From a virus, in the IMG/VR virus record IMGVR_UViG_3300021131_000041, positions 1-26,657 of that record: a stretch of DNA of 26,657 nt. One strand, 5' to 3'. Below the pieces are notes generated by a model that was not told the origin of the DNA, did no database searches, and was given only the letters and a program-made list of their open reading frames with translations. The translations under genes and the position numbers were made by a program. Below are positions 2,119-11,500 of this stretch, piece after piece. The first letter of the stretch is position 1. Each line of letters starts with the position of its first letter.

Positions 2119-2616
2119 TCAATACCAACGGGCAGTAAGCCCGTTGCGTATCCTTAAAACTCTTGTGATGCTTACGTTGTATTTTTCTGCAACTTGTTTC
2201 AGTGATCCTTCTTCTTTTTTTATAGAATTAAATTCTTTCTCAGATATTTTTCTTCCGACCCTTGAGTGTTTATTTTTTCCTAATTCTCTTGAATTGTGAA
2301 TTTGATTTGTTCTTCTATCGCACCATTCTAGATTATCGACATTATTATTATGCTTATTCCCATCCTTATGATTTACTTCTGGAAGTTTATTAGGATTAGG
2401 GATAAAATGTGTTGCCACAAGAATGTGGACATAAAAGTTTATTTTGTTTAGTCTAAGTTGCAAATAGCCTCCGGAATGAGGCTGAGGCGATCTCATGCTT
2501 GGCGGAGCGTATCTTTTGGTTTTTCCAAATTTTCTCCATCCACCAATAAATCTGACTTCGCCAGAAGTAGATACTTCATATGAAGGATGATCAGATATTT
2601 CTTTCCAGATTGTCAT
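2119..2616 (-). CDS. HNH homing endonuclease with NUMOD4 and C-terminal HTH
   Basis: 165 residues on the strand opposite to all neighbours. Residues 3-50 match NUMOD4 (W-K-E-I, YEVSTSGEVR). Residues about 63-110 carry the HNH nuclease fold: VHILVATHFIPNP, then VNHKDGNKHNNNVDNLEWC with the catalytic H and metal-binding H/N. Residues about 125-160 (SLKQVAEKYNVSITRVLRIRNG) form a helix-turn-helix likely to bind DNA. AGGAG precedes the ATG. The gene is visibly richer in A+T than its surroundings, fitting a mobile insertion. It sits cleanly between endolysin and holin genes and disrupts neither. No intron is evident, so it is a free-standing homing gene. Confidence 0.92.
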   Translation of the reverse strand: MTIWKEISDHPSYEVSTSGEVRFIGGWRKFGKTKRYAPPSMRSPQPHSGGYLQLRLNKINFYVHILVATHFIPNPNKLPEVNHKDGNKHNNNVDNLEWCDRRTNQIHNSRELGKNKHSRVGRKISEKEFNSIKKEEGSLKQVAEKYNVSITRVLRIRNGLTARWY

Positions 2617-4082: not shown

Positions 4083-6383
4083 ATGCCGCATCAAACACTC
4101 AAGCTTATCCCTGGCGTCGATCAAAACCGCACAACGACGTTCAACGAGGCGGCGATATCTCAAACAAACCTCATACGGTTCGTGCCCGATCGCCAGGGCG
4201 TCGCGCTTGTCCAAAAGCTTGGCGGATGGACAAAGTTCTTCGCGAACTCAGTGGGAGACATCGTCCGCGCATTGTGGGCGTGGGAAGACACGAACGCCAA
4301 TACTTATTTAGGTCTTGGGCAGCAAAGCACGTCGGCAAGCGGAAATGGTCTTTCTGTTATTTATAACAGCAATAGGCAGGTTATTACGCCAAGAACTGAC
4401 ACTTTAAACTATTCATTCGACGCGACTGACGGCATTACGACATCTGCCGGATCAAGCGTTCTAACTGTTTACGCCGTCGCGTCAAATGTTAGCGCGTATG
4501 ACGCTGTTTATATCAGAACACAGATAGCAGTAGACGGATTAGTTCTGTTTGGGACTTATCCGTGCTTGTTTTTAAGCGCTGACCAATTTCAAATTGTTTC
4601 AAAAGACCCCCTTGGCAATCCCTTAGCTGCGACTTCTACGATAACGTCGCCAAGTGGGGCAGTCCCCGTATTTACGTTTTCAACTAATCAGGCTCAAGTA
4701 AGTGTTGTATTAAACAATCACGGCTATTCTGTTGGAAGCACATTCCCAATTGTTGTAACCGGAACATATGGATCCGTAACATTATACGGAAACTACACTG
4801 TAAATTCAGTTAGTGACACAAACACATTTACTTTTATTGCAGGATCAACAGCAACAACGGCGTCTATTGTTAGCGCAAGCGTTACAGCGGGAACTGCGAC
4901 TGTAATTTTTAGCGGGACTTACACTTTCCACGTCGGCGACAAAGTAACAGTTTCTGGAACGACAACGTATGACGGCACGTATACTGTCACTGCGGCAACG
5001 TCTAGCAGCGTGTCTTTTGCTCACGGAGCCGCGGCTTCTATTGGCGCTGTTGGGACTGTATTAAATAGTTCAGGGTCTTTAAACAGCGGGAAGGCTCAGT
5101 ATCAATTCTACAGAACGCCTGCCCCTCTGCCGACAAGCATCGGATACGGCGTCGCGGGCTATGGAGCCGGCGGTTACGGCACCGGCGTTTTACCTCCTGC
5201 GACCATTCAAGGGTCGCCAATTACTGTTTCTGACTGGACGCTCGATAACTGGGGGCAGATATTTATGTCATGCCCAGTCGGCGGTGGAATATACTACTGG
5301 CAGCCAAATGCTGGTTCTGTTGTCGCGTCAGTAATACCAACTGCGCCGATAGTAAATGACGGCATGTTTGTCGCGATGCCTCAACGCCAGGTTGTTGCGT
5401 GGGGTTCCACGTTTACAGGCATCCAAGACCCATTACTTATTAATTGGTCTGACGTTAATGATTACACGTCTTGGATACCAAAAATAACAAACCAAGCCGG
5501 ATCTTATCGGCTTCCTCGTGGGTCTAAAATTGTTGGCTGCATCCAAGGTCCTCAACAGGGTCTTGTGTGGACAGATCTTGCTATATGGGCAATGCAATAT
5601 TCTGGTCCGCCATACGTTTATCAGTTCAACGAAATTGGCACGGGTTGCGGACTTATTTCCCGCAAAGCTGCAACGTCAATGAATGGCATTGTTTATTGGA
5701 TGGGGCAAAGCCAGTTCTTTAAACTTGGCGGCAGCGGCGTAGAAATAATTAGATGCCCAATATGGGACGTTATTTTCCAGGACCTTGATTTAAACAATGT
5801 AGATAAAATTAGGATTGCCGCAAACTCTCAGTTTGGAGAAATATCCTGGTATTATCCAACAACAACAGACGGTGGCGAAGTATCTAAATACGTCAAATAT
5901 AATGTCACGCTTGATCAGTGGGACTTTGGAACCTTAACGAGAACGGCGTGGATTAATCAATCCGTTCTTGGTCCGCCAATTGGTGCGGGAATATCGTCTC
6001 CAAACTATTACGTTTATCAGCACGAAACATCCCCAGACGCTGACGGGGCAGTAATGCAGTCGTTCTTCCAGACTGGATATTTTGCAATGTCTGACGCTGA
6101 GGTTAAGGTATTTGTTGACCAGGTTTGGCCTGACATGAAGTGGGGATACTATGGTCAGTCGCAGACTGCTCACGTAGAGCTATCCTTCTACACAGCAGAC
6201 TACCCAACAGATACGCCAAAGGTTTATGGACCTTATGACCTCAGCACGGCGACGACATACATAACGCCACGTTTTCGTGCGCGCCTAATGGCTCTACGCA
6301 TAGATAGCTCTCCGACTGAAATTGGGACTTTCTGGCGTCTTGGTGCTATACGTTACCGCTATGAACAAGATGGGAAATTCTAG
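4083..6383 (+). CDS. Tail nozzle / phage stabilisation protein (P22 gp10-like)
   Basis: 766 residues. The N-terminus (LIPGVDQNRTTTFNEAAI, then NLIRFVPDRQGVALVQKLGGW) matches the signature of large stabilisation or nozzle proteins in podovirus-like tails, which close the tail below the adaptor and hold the DNA in. The C-terminal half is a beta-propeller-like region rich in W, G and Y. About residues 200-330 hold two diverged beta modules of the kind VGxxVxVxGT...YxGxYTVxxxxxxxFxF, which look like an insertion of Ig-like repeats. A related module occurs in the protein at 6890. Three bases separate it from the adaptor gene. Its TAG overlaps the GTG of an HNH gene by one base. Confidence 0.78.
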   Translation: MPHQTLKLIPGVDQNRTTTFNEAAISQTNLIRFVPDRQGVALVQKLGGWTKFFANSVGDIVRALWAWEDTNANTYLGLGQQSTSASGNGLSVIYNSNRQVITPRTDTLNYSFDATDGITTSAGSSVLTVYAVASNVSAYDAVYIRTQIAVDGLVLFGTYPCLFLSADQFQIVSKDPLGNPLAATSTITSPSGAVPVFTFSTNQAQVSVVLNNHGYSVGSTFPIVVTGTYGSVTLYGNYTVNSVSDTNTFTFIAGSTATTASIVSASVTAGTATVIFSGTYTFHVGDKVTVSGTTTYDGTYTVTAATSSSVSFAHGAAASIGAVGTVLNSSGSLNSGKAQYQFYRTPAPLPTSIGYGVAGYGAGGYGTGVLPPATIQGSPITVSDWTLDNWGQIFMSCPVGGGIYYWQPNAGSVVASVIPTAPIVNDGMFVAMPQRQVVAWGSTFTGIQDPLLINWSDVNDYTSWIPKITNQAGSYRLPRGSKIVGCIQGPQQGLVWTDLAIWAMQYSGPPYVYQFNEIGTGCGLISRKAATSMNGIVYWMGQSQFFKLGGSGVEIIRCPIWDVIFQDLDLNNVDKIRIAANSQFGEISWYYPTTTDGGEVSKYVKYNVTLDQWDFGTLTRTAWINQSVLGPPIGAGISSPNYYVYQHETSPDADGAVMQSFFQTGYFAMSDAEVKVFVDQVWPDMKWGYYGQSQTAHVELSFYTADYPTDTPKVYGPYDLSTATTYITPRFRARLMALRIDSSPTEIGTFWRLGAIRYRYEQDGKF

Positions 6384-6880
6384 TGGAAAATGATCATATA
6401 AAAAATATTGCTTTTGAGCAGCTAATATACAACCCAGATACTGGTGTTTTTACTTGGGCTGTATCGCGAAGAGGAATTAGCGCGGGGGCTATTGCCGGAA
6501 CAAAAGAAAAAACTGGGTATAGAAAAATAATGATTAATCGTCGTTATTGCGGGTCGCATCGGTTAGCTTGGCTTTTTATTTATGGCGAATGGCCAAATGG
6601 TATTATTGATCATATAGATGGCGATCCATCAAATAATATAGCTTCTAATTTGAGGATTTCTAATACATCATTAAACGCAGCTAATAAGAAAAAGCCCATT
6701 ACTAACACATCTGGGTTTAAAGGCGTCTCTCTCGTAAAATCTACTGGAAAATGGTATGCATGCATTAAAATAAACGGCAGAACTAAAAATCTTGGATTTT
6801 ATGATAACCCTGAGATGGCACATAATTCTTATATAACCGCAGCGCGTTTGCATTTTGGCGAACACGCTAGAGCCAAATAG
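6383..6880 (+). CDS. HNH homing endonuclease with C-terminal AP2 domain
   Basis: 165 residues. The HNH region is about residues 58-100 (SHRLAWLFIYGEWP, IDHIDGDPSNN, NLRISN). An AP2 DNA-binding domain follows (about 108-163: SGFKGVSLVKSTGKWYACI, LGFYDNPEMA, AARLHFGE). HNH-AP2 proteins are mobile nicking or homing nucleases of phages. The start is a GTG overlapping the upstream TAG; the next in-frame ATG would cut into the HNH core, so GTG is favoured. The gene is A+T-rich compared with its neighbours. It lies in sense between two virion genes, and both junctions carry TAG, so removing it would leave the upstream stop joined to the next ribosome site. Confidence 0.9.
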   Translation: MENDHIKNIAFEQLIYNPDTGVFTWAVSRRGISAGAIAGTKEKTGYRKIMINRRYCGSHRLAWLFIYGEWPNGIIDHIDGDPSNNIASNLRISNTSLNAANKKKPITNTSGFKGVSLVKSTGKWYACIKINGRTKNLGFYDNPEMAHNSYITAARLHFGEHARAK

Positions 6881-6889
6881 GAGGTTACC

Positions 6890-7498
6890 GTCGCTACCCT
6901 CGATGACATCCTCACAACACAGAAGAATGGCGTCATTGCCATCAACAACCTTAATCAGACGCTGACGACGTTTCAGAAAAATTACTCTTACGCGGTTGGT
7001 CAATACACATCTGACGGCATAAGCACGTCAGGAGGTGTTGTGTCTTTATCAGCGGGTAGAATTGTAAGCGTTAATACAATTGTCGCCGGGACGGCCCCAA
7101 GTATAATTTATGATTATCACACATACCCGACAACGTCTGCTAACAGCAGCTCTGGAACCGCCACAATTGGTTATAGCGGAGGCTCCACAATTACGCCTAC
7201 GTTCGCCTCAGGCGACACTGTTATCATAGCAGGTATTGCGCCGTCCGGGTTTAATAACGCTACTGGTGTTACTGTATTAGCTTCCCCCGCGCCAACAACA
7301 ACAACCTTCTCATACACGAACAGCACGGCTGGCCCTCAAACAGTTGCCGGCACTGTTTTCAATTTAAATGCTGCAAATAAAATAATTGCGGTGCCTACAA
7401 CTGTTGGAACTATTCAGGTTGGCGCTCAATTTTCATACGGAATTTACGTTATAATTGGAACAGGTCAGACTATTTCCATCACTTACTCGCTTGGTTGA
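6890..7498 (+). CDS. Virion-associated beta-rich protein; probable non-standard GTC start
   Basis: Coding quality extends upstream of the first standard start (GTG at 7040) all the way to 6890. The extra residues (ATLDDILTTQKNGV, then INNLNQTLTTF) look like the normal N-terminus of a phage structural family that usually begins Met-Ala-Thr-Leu/Ile-Asp-Asp. AGGAGG at 6879-6884 lies 5 bases before a GTC exactly where ATG would be expected. A second perfect AGGAGG (7030-7035) precedes the GTG at 7040, which would give a 152-residue form instead of 202. The protein is Ser/Thr/Gly-rich beta sheet, with one module like those in the nozzle protein. It could be a head or tail decoration protein. The frame is certain; the start is not. 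Confidence 0.7.
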   Translation, partial: VATLDDILTTQKNGVIAINNLNQTLTTFQKNYSYAVGQYTSDGISTSGGVVSLSAGRIVSVNTIVAGTAPSIIYDYHTYPTTSANSSSGTATIGYSGGSTITPTFASGDTVIIAGIAPSGFNNATGVTVLASPAPTTTTFSYTNSTAGPQTVAGTVFNLNAANKIIAVPTTVGTIQVGAQFSYGIYVIIGTGQTISITYSLG

Positions 7499-8550: not shown

Positions 8551-11500
8551 ATGTGCGGGAAAGGATCACAAAGCGGCGGAGGGACAGGTGCCCTTGGCTG
8601 GGGTGGATTGGCTCCCGCACAACAAGCAACGACACAGGCGTCGCCTCAGGCTCTTGGCTGGTATAATCAGGCAATGGGCATGGCGCAAAATGCCGTTGCC
8701 CAGCCTTACAAACAATTCGGAACAACAGCCCAAGATTTTGTTGCTCAATTAAACCCTCAACAGCAGGCCGCGCAACAAGGCTTGCAATATCAGGCAGCCG
8801 CAACACAGCCTTTTGCCTCACAGGGCGCTGCCCTAACTTATGGGGCCGGCCTGGCTAATCCAGCCATGATGGCTCAAAACTATATGAACCCATACATGAA
8901 CCAGGTTGTTAGCCCGGTTCAGCAGGCAATTCAACAGCAGCAAGGCCAGCAGTTAGCTCAGCAACAGGCAGACGCCATTAAAGGCGGCGCTTTTGGCGGG
9001 GAGCGTGCAGGACTACAGCGCGCAACGCTTATGGGTCAGCAGAACCTTGGACTTGGGCAAGCTCTTAGTCCGCTGTATCAAACTGGCTACGGCCAAGCAT
9101 TAGGCGCGGCTCAAGGTCAAATTGGCAATCAGCTGACTGCCGGGCAAAACCTTACGGGTCAGGGCCTCGCCGCTCAACAGGCTTCTCTTGGAGCTGGGAC
9201 GCTTGGCCAGCAGACGCAGCAAGCCGGCATCAACGCCCTATACAATCAGTTTCAGCAACAACAAATGTTTCCATACATGCAGGCGCAGTTTCTTGGCGGC
9301 CTTGCAGGCGGCCTTGGCCCGCTTACTGGTCAACAGACGTATCAAGCTCAAGCTCAAAATCCATTTGGCATGTTCCTGGCTCGTGGCGGTCGCGCCAAAG
9401 GCAAGGAGCGTATGGGCGGCGCTGTAATCGATCTAACGCCAGGTAAAGATTATTACCGCGGCGGAGTTGTTGGTCGTAAGGGATACAATCTCACTGGTGC
9501 CGTAGACACGGATCCTGCCGCGTTAGCCCAAGAACAAGCCAAAATGTATGAGGAAATGGACAAGGCTGAGAAGGCTCAAGCGATGCCTACTGGTCAGATC
9601 CAAGGATCTCACGGGTTAACGCCAGGCGGCCTTGGTGGTGGGAGCGGCGCTAAGCAAGGGACGTCTCTTTCTGGTTTATTAGGATTAGCAGATAAGGCCA
9701 CCAATCTTGGTAAAGATTTGGGGATTGGCGGTTTATTTAATTCTGGCTCTTCTTCCGCTGCTAACACTGGCGCGACAGTTGGCGGGAAGTCTTACGCGGA
9801 TGAATTAATTGCGGCTGGCATTAATCCAGAAGTCGCGTCTACTGTTGCCGGCGCATCTGAAGCCGCTCCAATGATGGAAGGGGCAAGCACTGCCGCGGGT
9901 GGTGCGGGACTTCTTGGCGGCCTTAGTGAACTTGGCTCTTCTATTATGAGCGGCCTTGGATCAATCGGATCTTTCTTAGGCCCTGCCGCTGCTTTTTTAG
10001 CAAAAGACGGCGGCCGTGTCGGCTATTACGATGGCGGTGTAGTCAACCGTCGTGGGTATGAAGGCGAAGGCTTTGTTAAGCCGTCAGACGACTTCGAGCG
10101 AAATGTAGAGCAGACCTTTAAGTTTGAGGGCGGACTGAACCCAAGCGACACAAACAGAACGCCGTCTATGTATGGCATCAATCAAGCCGCGCATCCGGGC
10201 ATTGACGTTAAAAACCTTACGCGCGACCAGGCCAAAGACATCTACCGCAAGGAATACTGGCAAGGCATTAATGCTGACCAACTCCCTGAAGGAGTTCGCG
10301 GCATGGCCTACGACACAGCAGTCATGGCGGGTCCAGGACGTGCGCGTCAGTTCCTGAAGCAATCAGGCAATGATCCTGAAAAGTTCATGGCGGCGCGAGA
10401 AGCATTCCTTGGCAATCTAATTACACGCAATCCTGAGAAATACGGAAAGTATGAAAAGGCTTGGGCAAATAGAAATGCAACATTGCGCGGCGGTGTCGGA
10501 GACGCCCTTTCTAACTTACCGCCAAATGCAAGAAGCTATTACGCTCAGGCAAATCTTCCTGACGAGGGATCGACAGTAAATCTTTCAGGAGGCGTTAAGC
10601 CATCTGAAGAAGGATTTGGCCTTAACCGCCAGACTGTCGTGCCTTTGCTTTCAGGTCTTGGCGCTGCACTTGAGGGGATGGTTTCGTCTCCGACCACAAG
10701 CCTTGGCGGCGCAATGCTGAGAGGCGCAGGTGCGGGTCTTGGCGCTGGCGCTAAGTCTTACATGGATGTCGGCAAGCAGATCCCAGAGATTGAGAAGCTC
10801 AAGGCTGAAGTTCCAAAACTTGCCGCTGAAACTAAAGAGCGCGAGAACCTCGCGGCACGCGCTGCGGCAGAGACAAAAGAAAAACTTTCTACTCTCTACG
10901 AGAAGCAGTGGGTGCCGAATGTTGGCTGGATGGTTTACGACAAGACACAGCCATACAAGACGCCTGTTCAGATCTCTGACGCTGAGGGCAACCCAACTAA
11001 AAACGTCGACGTTAATAAAATACCAACGCGCGGCGGCGGTGAAAGAATTGAAGATATTGGCAAGAAATCTCTTCAAGAAAAAGTTCAAGGCAAAGAGCGC
11101 AAGGTTGGCGACGCCATTGACTGGCAGCCGACGCTTGCCGCGCCAAAAGATACAAAGATCCCTGGCGCTCTTAACATTGCAATGAGCGGGGATCTTCCTA
11201 AGCAGCAAGAGGCGGCTAAGAAAGAGGTAGAAGGGCTTCGCACAACATCGAAGGCAGCGTTTGATCAGCTCTATCGTCTTGACGAGATGGAGCATCAATT
11301 TGATCAATTGCCTAAGGAGGCAAACTTCTTAGAGCCAGGGCCCGCGTCTCAAGCAAGAACAGACCTTGCTAAGACTGCAAACGAAATAACGACAATGCTT
11401 GGCGGCCAGCCTTTGTTTGATCCAAACAATGTCGCCGCGGCAGAAGCTCTGTCAAAAGACACAACACGTCTTGGCTTTGATGTCGCCAGGTCTCTTGGCC

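Follow-up and report, generated by a model that had tools for sequence, protein, structure and literature searches.

A phage virion-module gene with an HNH endonuclease gene on its start codon and a probable near-cognate start behind a perfect Shine-Dalgarno sequence

How does a conserved gene begin when its reading frame offers no standard start codon? The question is raised by one locus in a 26,657-nucleotide stretch of viral DNA (IMG/VR record IMGVR_UViG_3300021131_000041), the whole of which is here called the window. The stop codon of an HNH gene (TAG, 6878 to 6880) overlaps an AGGAGG (6879 to 6884), which is followed by five bases and then by GTC 6890. Beyond that stop, 205 codons in the same frame run uninterrupted to TGA 7496 to 7498 (202 codons counted from the GTC), and ATG, GTG, and TTG are absent from them until GTG 7040. 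A sequence-only reading had proposed that the GTC is used, that the original start was lost and a 152-residue form is made from GTG 7040, or that both forms are made. Its coordinates for GTC 6890, GTG 7040, and the AGGAGG before each were all exact on checking, and the HNH gene does lie in the frame of the virion gene with a single TAG between them; the shared frame follows from the geometry, as the T before the AGGAGG completes a TAG that lies 12 nt ahead of the start and so is always in frame. The features of the locus are as follows.

4083 to 6383, plus strand: upstream structural gene (virion structural or "stabilization" protein; phrog_3287, E=2.1e-53)
6383 to 6385, plus strand: captured start codon GTG, overlapping the TAG of the upstream structural gene
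6383 to 6880, plus strand: HNH-AP2 endonuclease gene at the start codon, in sense orientation (phrog_99, E=1.4e-60; Pfam HNH_3)
6879 to 6884, plus strand: AGGAGG, the virion gene's Shine-Dalgarno sequence, which shares bases with the TAG that ends the HNH gene
6890 to 6892, plus strand: GTC, inferred near-cognate start, homologous to GTG, ATG, or TTG; ATC or ACG in other displaced relatives
6890 to 7498, plus strand: virion-module gene with a conserved N-terminus (ATLDDILTTQKNGV.AINNLNQT) and a variable C-terminus, under purifying selection
7030 to 7042, plus strand: internal AGGAGG and GTG, probably not a (main) start; the codon is Ile in L002 and L005

The residues behind the GTC had been read as a conserved phage N-terminus, and this was borne out, since residues 2 to 45 of the window protein match its homologues with two differences. 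In this family the first 24 residues are nearly fixed and the C-terminal part is fully different between phages, as in modular fibres or decoration proteins. The assignment of the protein to the virion is putative and comes solely from the neighbouring genes, among them the upstream gene, whose homologue in MW202675.1 is annotated as a phage stabilization protein. The AlphaFold2 model of the virion protein was of low confidence (pLDDT 40). In INPHARED, no homologue of the full-length protein was found, and a search with the N-terminus gave one distant homologue with a canonical start; a scan of genome contigs found only four MAG loci with homologues. Elsewhere in the window, positions 285 to 1343 strongly match phrog_13126, a phage beta-1,4-glycosyltransferase family.

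What became of the original start was evident from close relatives with and without the HNH gene, whose presence or absence is precise at this one site. The gene is absent from five IMG/VR contigs whose virion protein is 79 to 80% identical (L002 to L006) and present in L007, L008, and L121. At the empty site of L002 to L006, the upstream gene ends in TTCTAG and the virion gene starts at an overlapping GTG (AAATTCTAGTGGCAACG). The left flank AAATTCTAGTGG is identical in L002 and L005, where it opens the virion gene, and in the window and L007, where it opens the HNH gene; in the window the virion gene resumes at GTCGCTACCCTC, while GTG 6383 opens the HNH gene. With the flank identical and its GTG now opening the HNH gene, the endonuclease gene therefore lies precisely at the start codon, which it has made its own. 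The proposal of a lost start was thus right in a specific way, namely that the HNH gene captured it, and in HNH-less relatives a GTG, ATG, or TTG stands at exactly the position of GTC 6890. L007 carries a near-identical HNH gene in the same place, on a contig that ends before the right junction. L008, at about 74% DNA identity, has an HNH gene 85% identical at the same place and a virion gene that starts with ATC behind AGGAGGCTAGT. An exact-pattern search (AATAGGAGGTTACCNTNGCTAC) found the window's own junction nowhere else. The window HNH gene matches Pfam HNH_3 with 48.4 bits (cut-off, 24.8) and AP2 with 25.7 bits (cut-off, 33.3); it is of the free-standing homing endonuclease type, for which cleavage and homing are predicted.

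Relatives gathered by a scan for the conserved N-terminus and by a DNA scan included a whole class in which AGGAGG and exactly five bases of varying sequence precede ATC, ACG or, in the window, GTC. This arrangement was found in 35 contigs including the window, which represent 21 distinct contexts (18 ATC, 2 ACG, and 1 GTC, among the matches listed). AGGAGG was present in 21/21 non-canonical contexts, always 5 nt upstream, compared to 0/194 canonical ones (215 distinct contexts, among the matches listed; the further canonical and ACG cases are likewise those among the matches listed, and the proportions are not frequencies). Fisher's test gave 1e-29 for the association between AGGAGG and codon, a value that is no true probability given that the sequences are related. 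When NT[ACT] at the start codon was searched for with no Shine-Dalgarno requirement, all 29 of 29 contigs had ATC behind AGGAGG at 5 nt. Over codons 2 to 55, ATC-only relatives had a pN/pS of 0.03 to 0.24, and on this measure the ATC and ACG alleles are under purifying selection. When the displaced state is mapped onto a tree built from the upstream protein (178 rows, a quick method, mosaic phages), no fewer than 14 changes are required, and displaced alleles adjoin near-identical canonical ones; the state is, as far as such a tree can tell, quickly gained, lost, or transferred.

The sequence in front of the displaced starts is diverse. An HNH gene stands there in sense orientation in the window, L008/L093, L121, and L124, and in antisense orientation in L091, L096, L100, L101, L112, L125, and L130. 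L104 has a 119-nt remnant of an antisense HNH gene, and L116, L098, L097, and L107 have inserts of 25 to 49 nt, which we read as scars. Other relatives have only a few bases there, for example TAATAGGAGGCTACCATC in L102 and others, TAAATAGGAGGCTGCCACG in L092 and others, and TAGGAGGCTACAATC in L094 and others. Just to the right of the antisense HNH gene in L091, L096, and L100, a short sequence between the gene's start and TAGGAGG is a perfect palindrome (TGTCATCTCAGATGACA). We dropped the idea that AGGAGG-N5-ATC is merely the 3' end of the HNH gene, as it is the 5' end that antisense HNH genes have at this position. Nor do we retain the idea that these genomes use non-standard starts throughout, as AGGAGG elsewhere in these loci precedes standard starts. 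Among the loci examined, one further near-cognate start of this type was found, an ATT in L155, where an unrelated 130-codon ORF (10032 to 10433) begins with it after TTAATAGGAGGCTACC.

Insertion does not by itself force a non-standard codon, since HNH-bearing L145, L245, L290, L090, L099, and L208 kept ATG. In L145, L245, and L290 the HNH genes are antisense and the ATG is preceded by GGAGG or GGAG; in L090/L099 an AGGAGG lies 6 nt before the ATG. AGGAGG at 5 nt was found here only with weak codons, which suggests that Shine-Dalgarno strength and codon strength compensate each other.

We consider it probable that the HNH gene took the start codon and that the displaced gene starts at GTC, ATC, or ACG through AGGAGG at 5 nt, in an initiation that would be driven by the Shine-Dalgarno sequence and probably coupled to termination, so that these starts would be the footprint of HNH insertion and loss. 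Normally, the virion start (ATG, GTG, or TTG) would overlap the upstream stop, as in TAATG, TAGTG, or TGATG, and presumably work by stop-start coupling without a Shine-Dalgarno sequence. An HNH-AP2 gene would insert exactly at this overlap and use that start codon itself, leaving the displaced gene to start at the homologous codon, GTC in the window, by means of the AGGAGG. Because the latter overlaps the HNH stop, a terminating ribosome could re-anchor there and reinitiate with fMet, and the near-cognate start (ATC, ACG) would outlast the insert, whether a sense or antisense HNH gene, a remnant, or nothing stands before it. Of the earlier proposal, use of the GTC is now the favoured part, because HNH-free homologues start at the same codon and many relatives, whether or not they carry an HNH gene, have ATC or ACG there behind the same AGGAGG. 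Actual use of the codon, its decoding with fMet, and the termination-reinitiation mechanism are what we infer.

Several precedents bear on such initiation. Bacteria are known to start some genes at AUC or AUU, and an AUC start has been confirmed for rnhC in Listeria (PMC13068326). A Shine-Dalgarno sequence enhances reinitiation and IF3 restrains non-canonical starts, and in published reporters it was a mutant initiator tRNA that decoded GUC (PMC2268962). GTC is the weakest member of the series, and initiation at it is the weakest point of our reading; its efficiency with a normal initiator tRNA may be very low. No tRNA genes were found in the window, hence no sign of a special initiator tRNA there. 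That the codon has stayed unrepaired to ATG could mean either that ATG behind so strong a Shine-Dalgarno sequence over-expresses the gene or that TG(GC) is avoided as part of the endonuclease target.

Translation might instead start solely at GTG 7040, giving the 152-residue form, or at both codons. This GTG is in frame and lies 4 nt behind a perfect AGGAGG of its own (7030 to 7035), and an internal AGGAGG followed by an in-frame NTG has P ~0.003 under synonymous randomisation (0.05 for AGGAGG anywhere). However, the codon is not conserved, being the Ile codon of the nearest relatives L002/L005, the AGGAGG encodes Ser-Gly-Gly, and the shorter form would lose the most conserved residues. Nor does it have a counterpart in other displaced relatives, which have no internal NTG preceded by a Shine-Dalgarno sequence save a late one in L096. 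In L131, L096, L008, and L094 the first in-frame NTG comes at residue 94 to 99 of 115 to 124; with no NTG before residue 94 in several relatives, an internal start cannot be general. HNH-free relatives start at the codon equivalent to GTC 6890 and not at GTG 7040. The 152-residue part of the earlier proposal is therefore disfavoured, and a start at GTG 7040, alone or as one of two, is unlikely; a minor second start there is possible in this one phage.

The displaced alleles could also be dead or dying, or the GTC an assembly error, for it is unique to the window, which is a metagenome contig. Against this, 34 further contigs have ATC or ACG alleles, which are under the purifying selection described above, and we regard this explanation as quite improbable. 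Still less credible is a start restored by RNA splicing, or by ribosomes bypassing the 507-nt insert from GTG 6383 to GCT 6893. Removal of 6386 to 6892 does restore TAGTG-GCTACC exactly in frame, and phage ICP1 has introns with HNH genes (PMC10448857). Yet the HNH ORF takes up almost all of the insert, an Rfam search of 6200 to 7200 up to E=1 gave no intron match, and insert-free relatives still have ATC or ACG, so that splicing or hopping fails as an explanation for the class as a whole. Read-through of the HNH stop into an HNH-virion fusion, which the shared frame and the one intervening TAG would allow, can practically be dismissed, since the upstream ORF of relatives is closed in a different frame or by tandem stops (TAA TAG), which keeps read-through from being general, and the linker codons show no conservation as protein.

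Unexpectedly, HNH genes occur at this junction in either orientation. Each of the 21 contexts with an insert has an operon-strand ORF that opens with the captured start codon (-1 to +2 relative to the upstream stop) and closes -39 to +20 nt from the virion start. With sense inserts this bridging ORF is the HNH gene; with antisense inserts it is the strand opposite the HNH gene, with ~165 to 182 open codons, and the HNH gene must therefore avoid in-frame TTA, CTA, and TCA. Within the HNH domain, the antisense genes here have none of these codons and the sense ones 4 to 8. Across six antisense lineages (<70% identity), 0 such codons were observed compared to ~17 expected from each phage's own codon usage (product of P ~8e-9), a figure that leaves out L208, with one such codon in a longer stretch, and in which lineages may share ancestry and HNH codon usage may differ from that of the phage. 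Among same-family HNH genes of isolated phages, 14/14 carry TTA, CTA, or TCA (1 to 13 each), including antisense ones of Skatevirus. A second, antisense HNH gene of another family in the window (2119 to 2616, minus strand; phrog_59) has eight, and its opposite strand is not stop-free. At a downstream junction, between the LPGPRKD* gene and an acetyltransferase gene, antisense HNH genes have none in L181 and L235 and three in L114.

The simplest reading would be that ribosomes need to keep translating through the insert, either to maintain coupling or to prevent transcriptional polarity. In a fuller version, which we put forward tentatively as somewhat short of likely, the stop-start homing site selects inserts with a readable operon strand (sense HNH gene, antisense HNH gene, or scar) and antisense HNH genes are purged of TTA, CTA, and TCA. 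Ribosomes would then cross to the AGGAGG and a near-cognate start, kept by an endonuclease that targets the start codon or because ATG behind that Shine-Dalgarno sequence would be too strong.

The window gene resembles free-standing phage HNH homing endonucleases (T4 mob; ICP1-like HNH-AP2 "IPA-HNH", PMC10448857; PMC2988022) in its HNH domain, its intergenic place, and its polymorphism between close relatives, and both are cassettes inside an operon, where expression of the neighbour must be preserved. Unlike those, it is inserted exactly on a start codon that it takes over, the neighbour's non-standard start outlives the endonuclease, and either orientation occurs with a stop-free operon strand. 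The codons are of the AUC/AUU class known from natural bacterial near-cognate starts (infC AUU; Listeria rnhC AUC, PMC13068326), but here a single phage gene has repeatedly acquired such codons (ATC, ACG and, in one case, GTC), in every instance with AGGAGG at 5 nt. As with Aeh1 mobE in nrdA (PMC2988022), endonuclease insertion alters the expression of a phage gene with function kept; whereas mobE splits nrdA, here the coding sequence is whole and only the start codon is lost. A search of open-licence papers brought up no account of a homing endonuclease capturing a start codon, of a near-cognate start remaining as the scar of one, or of an antisense homing endonuclease whose opposite strand is free of stops.

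At this locus nature has run the same experiment several times: a mobile element takes a gene's start codon, and the gene persists with ATC, ACG, or GTC and a perfect Shine-Dalgarno sequence. Gene finders limited to ATG, GTG, and TTG would miss or truncate such genes. The locus makes testable to what extent a strong Shine-Dalgarno sequence and termination-reinitiation can stand in for a start codon; its antisense HNH genes do the same for the question whether mRNA must be translated across a gene on the opposite strand.
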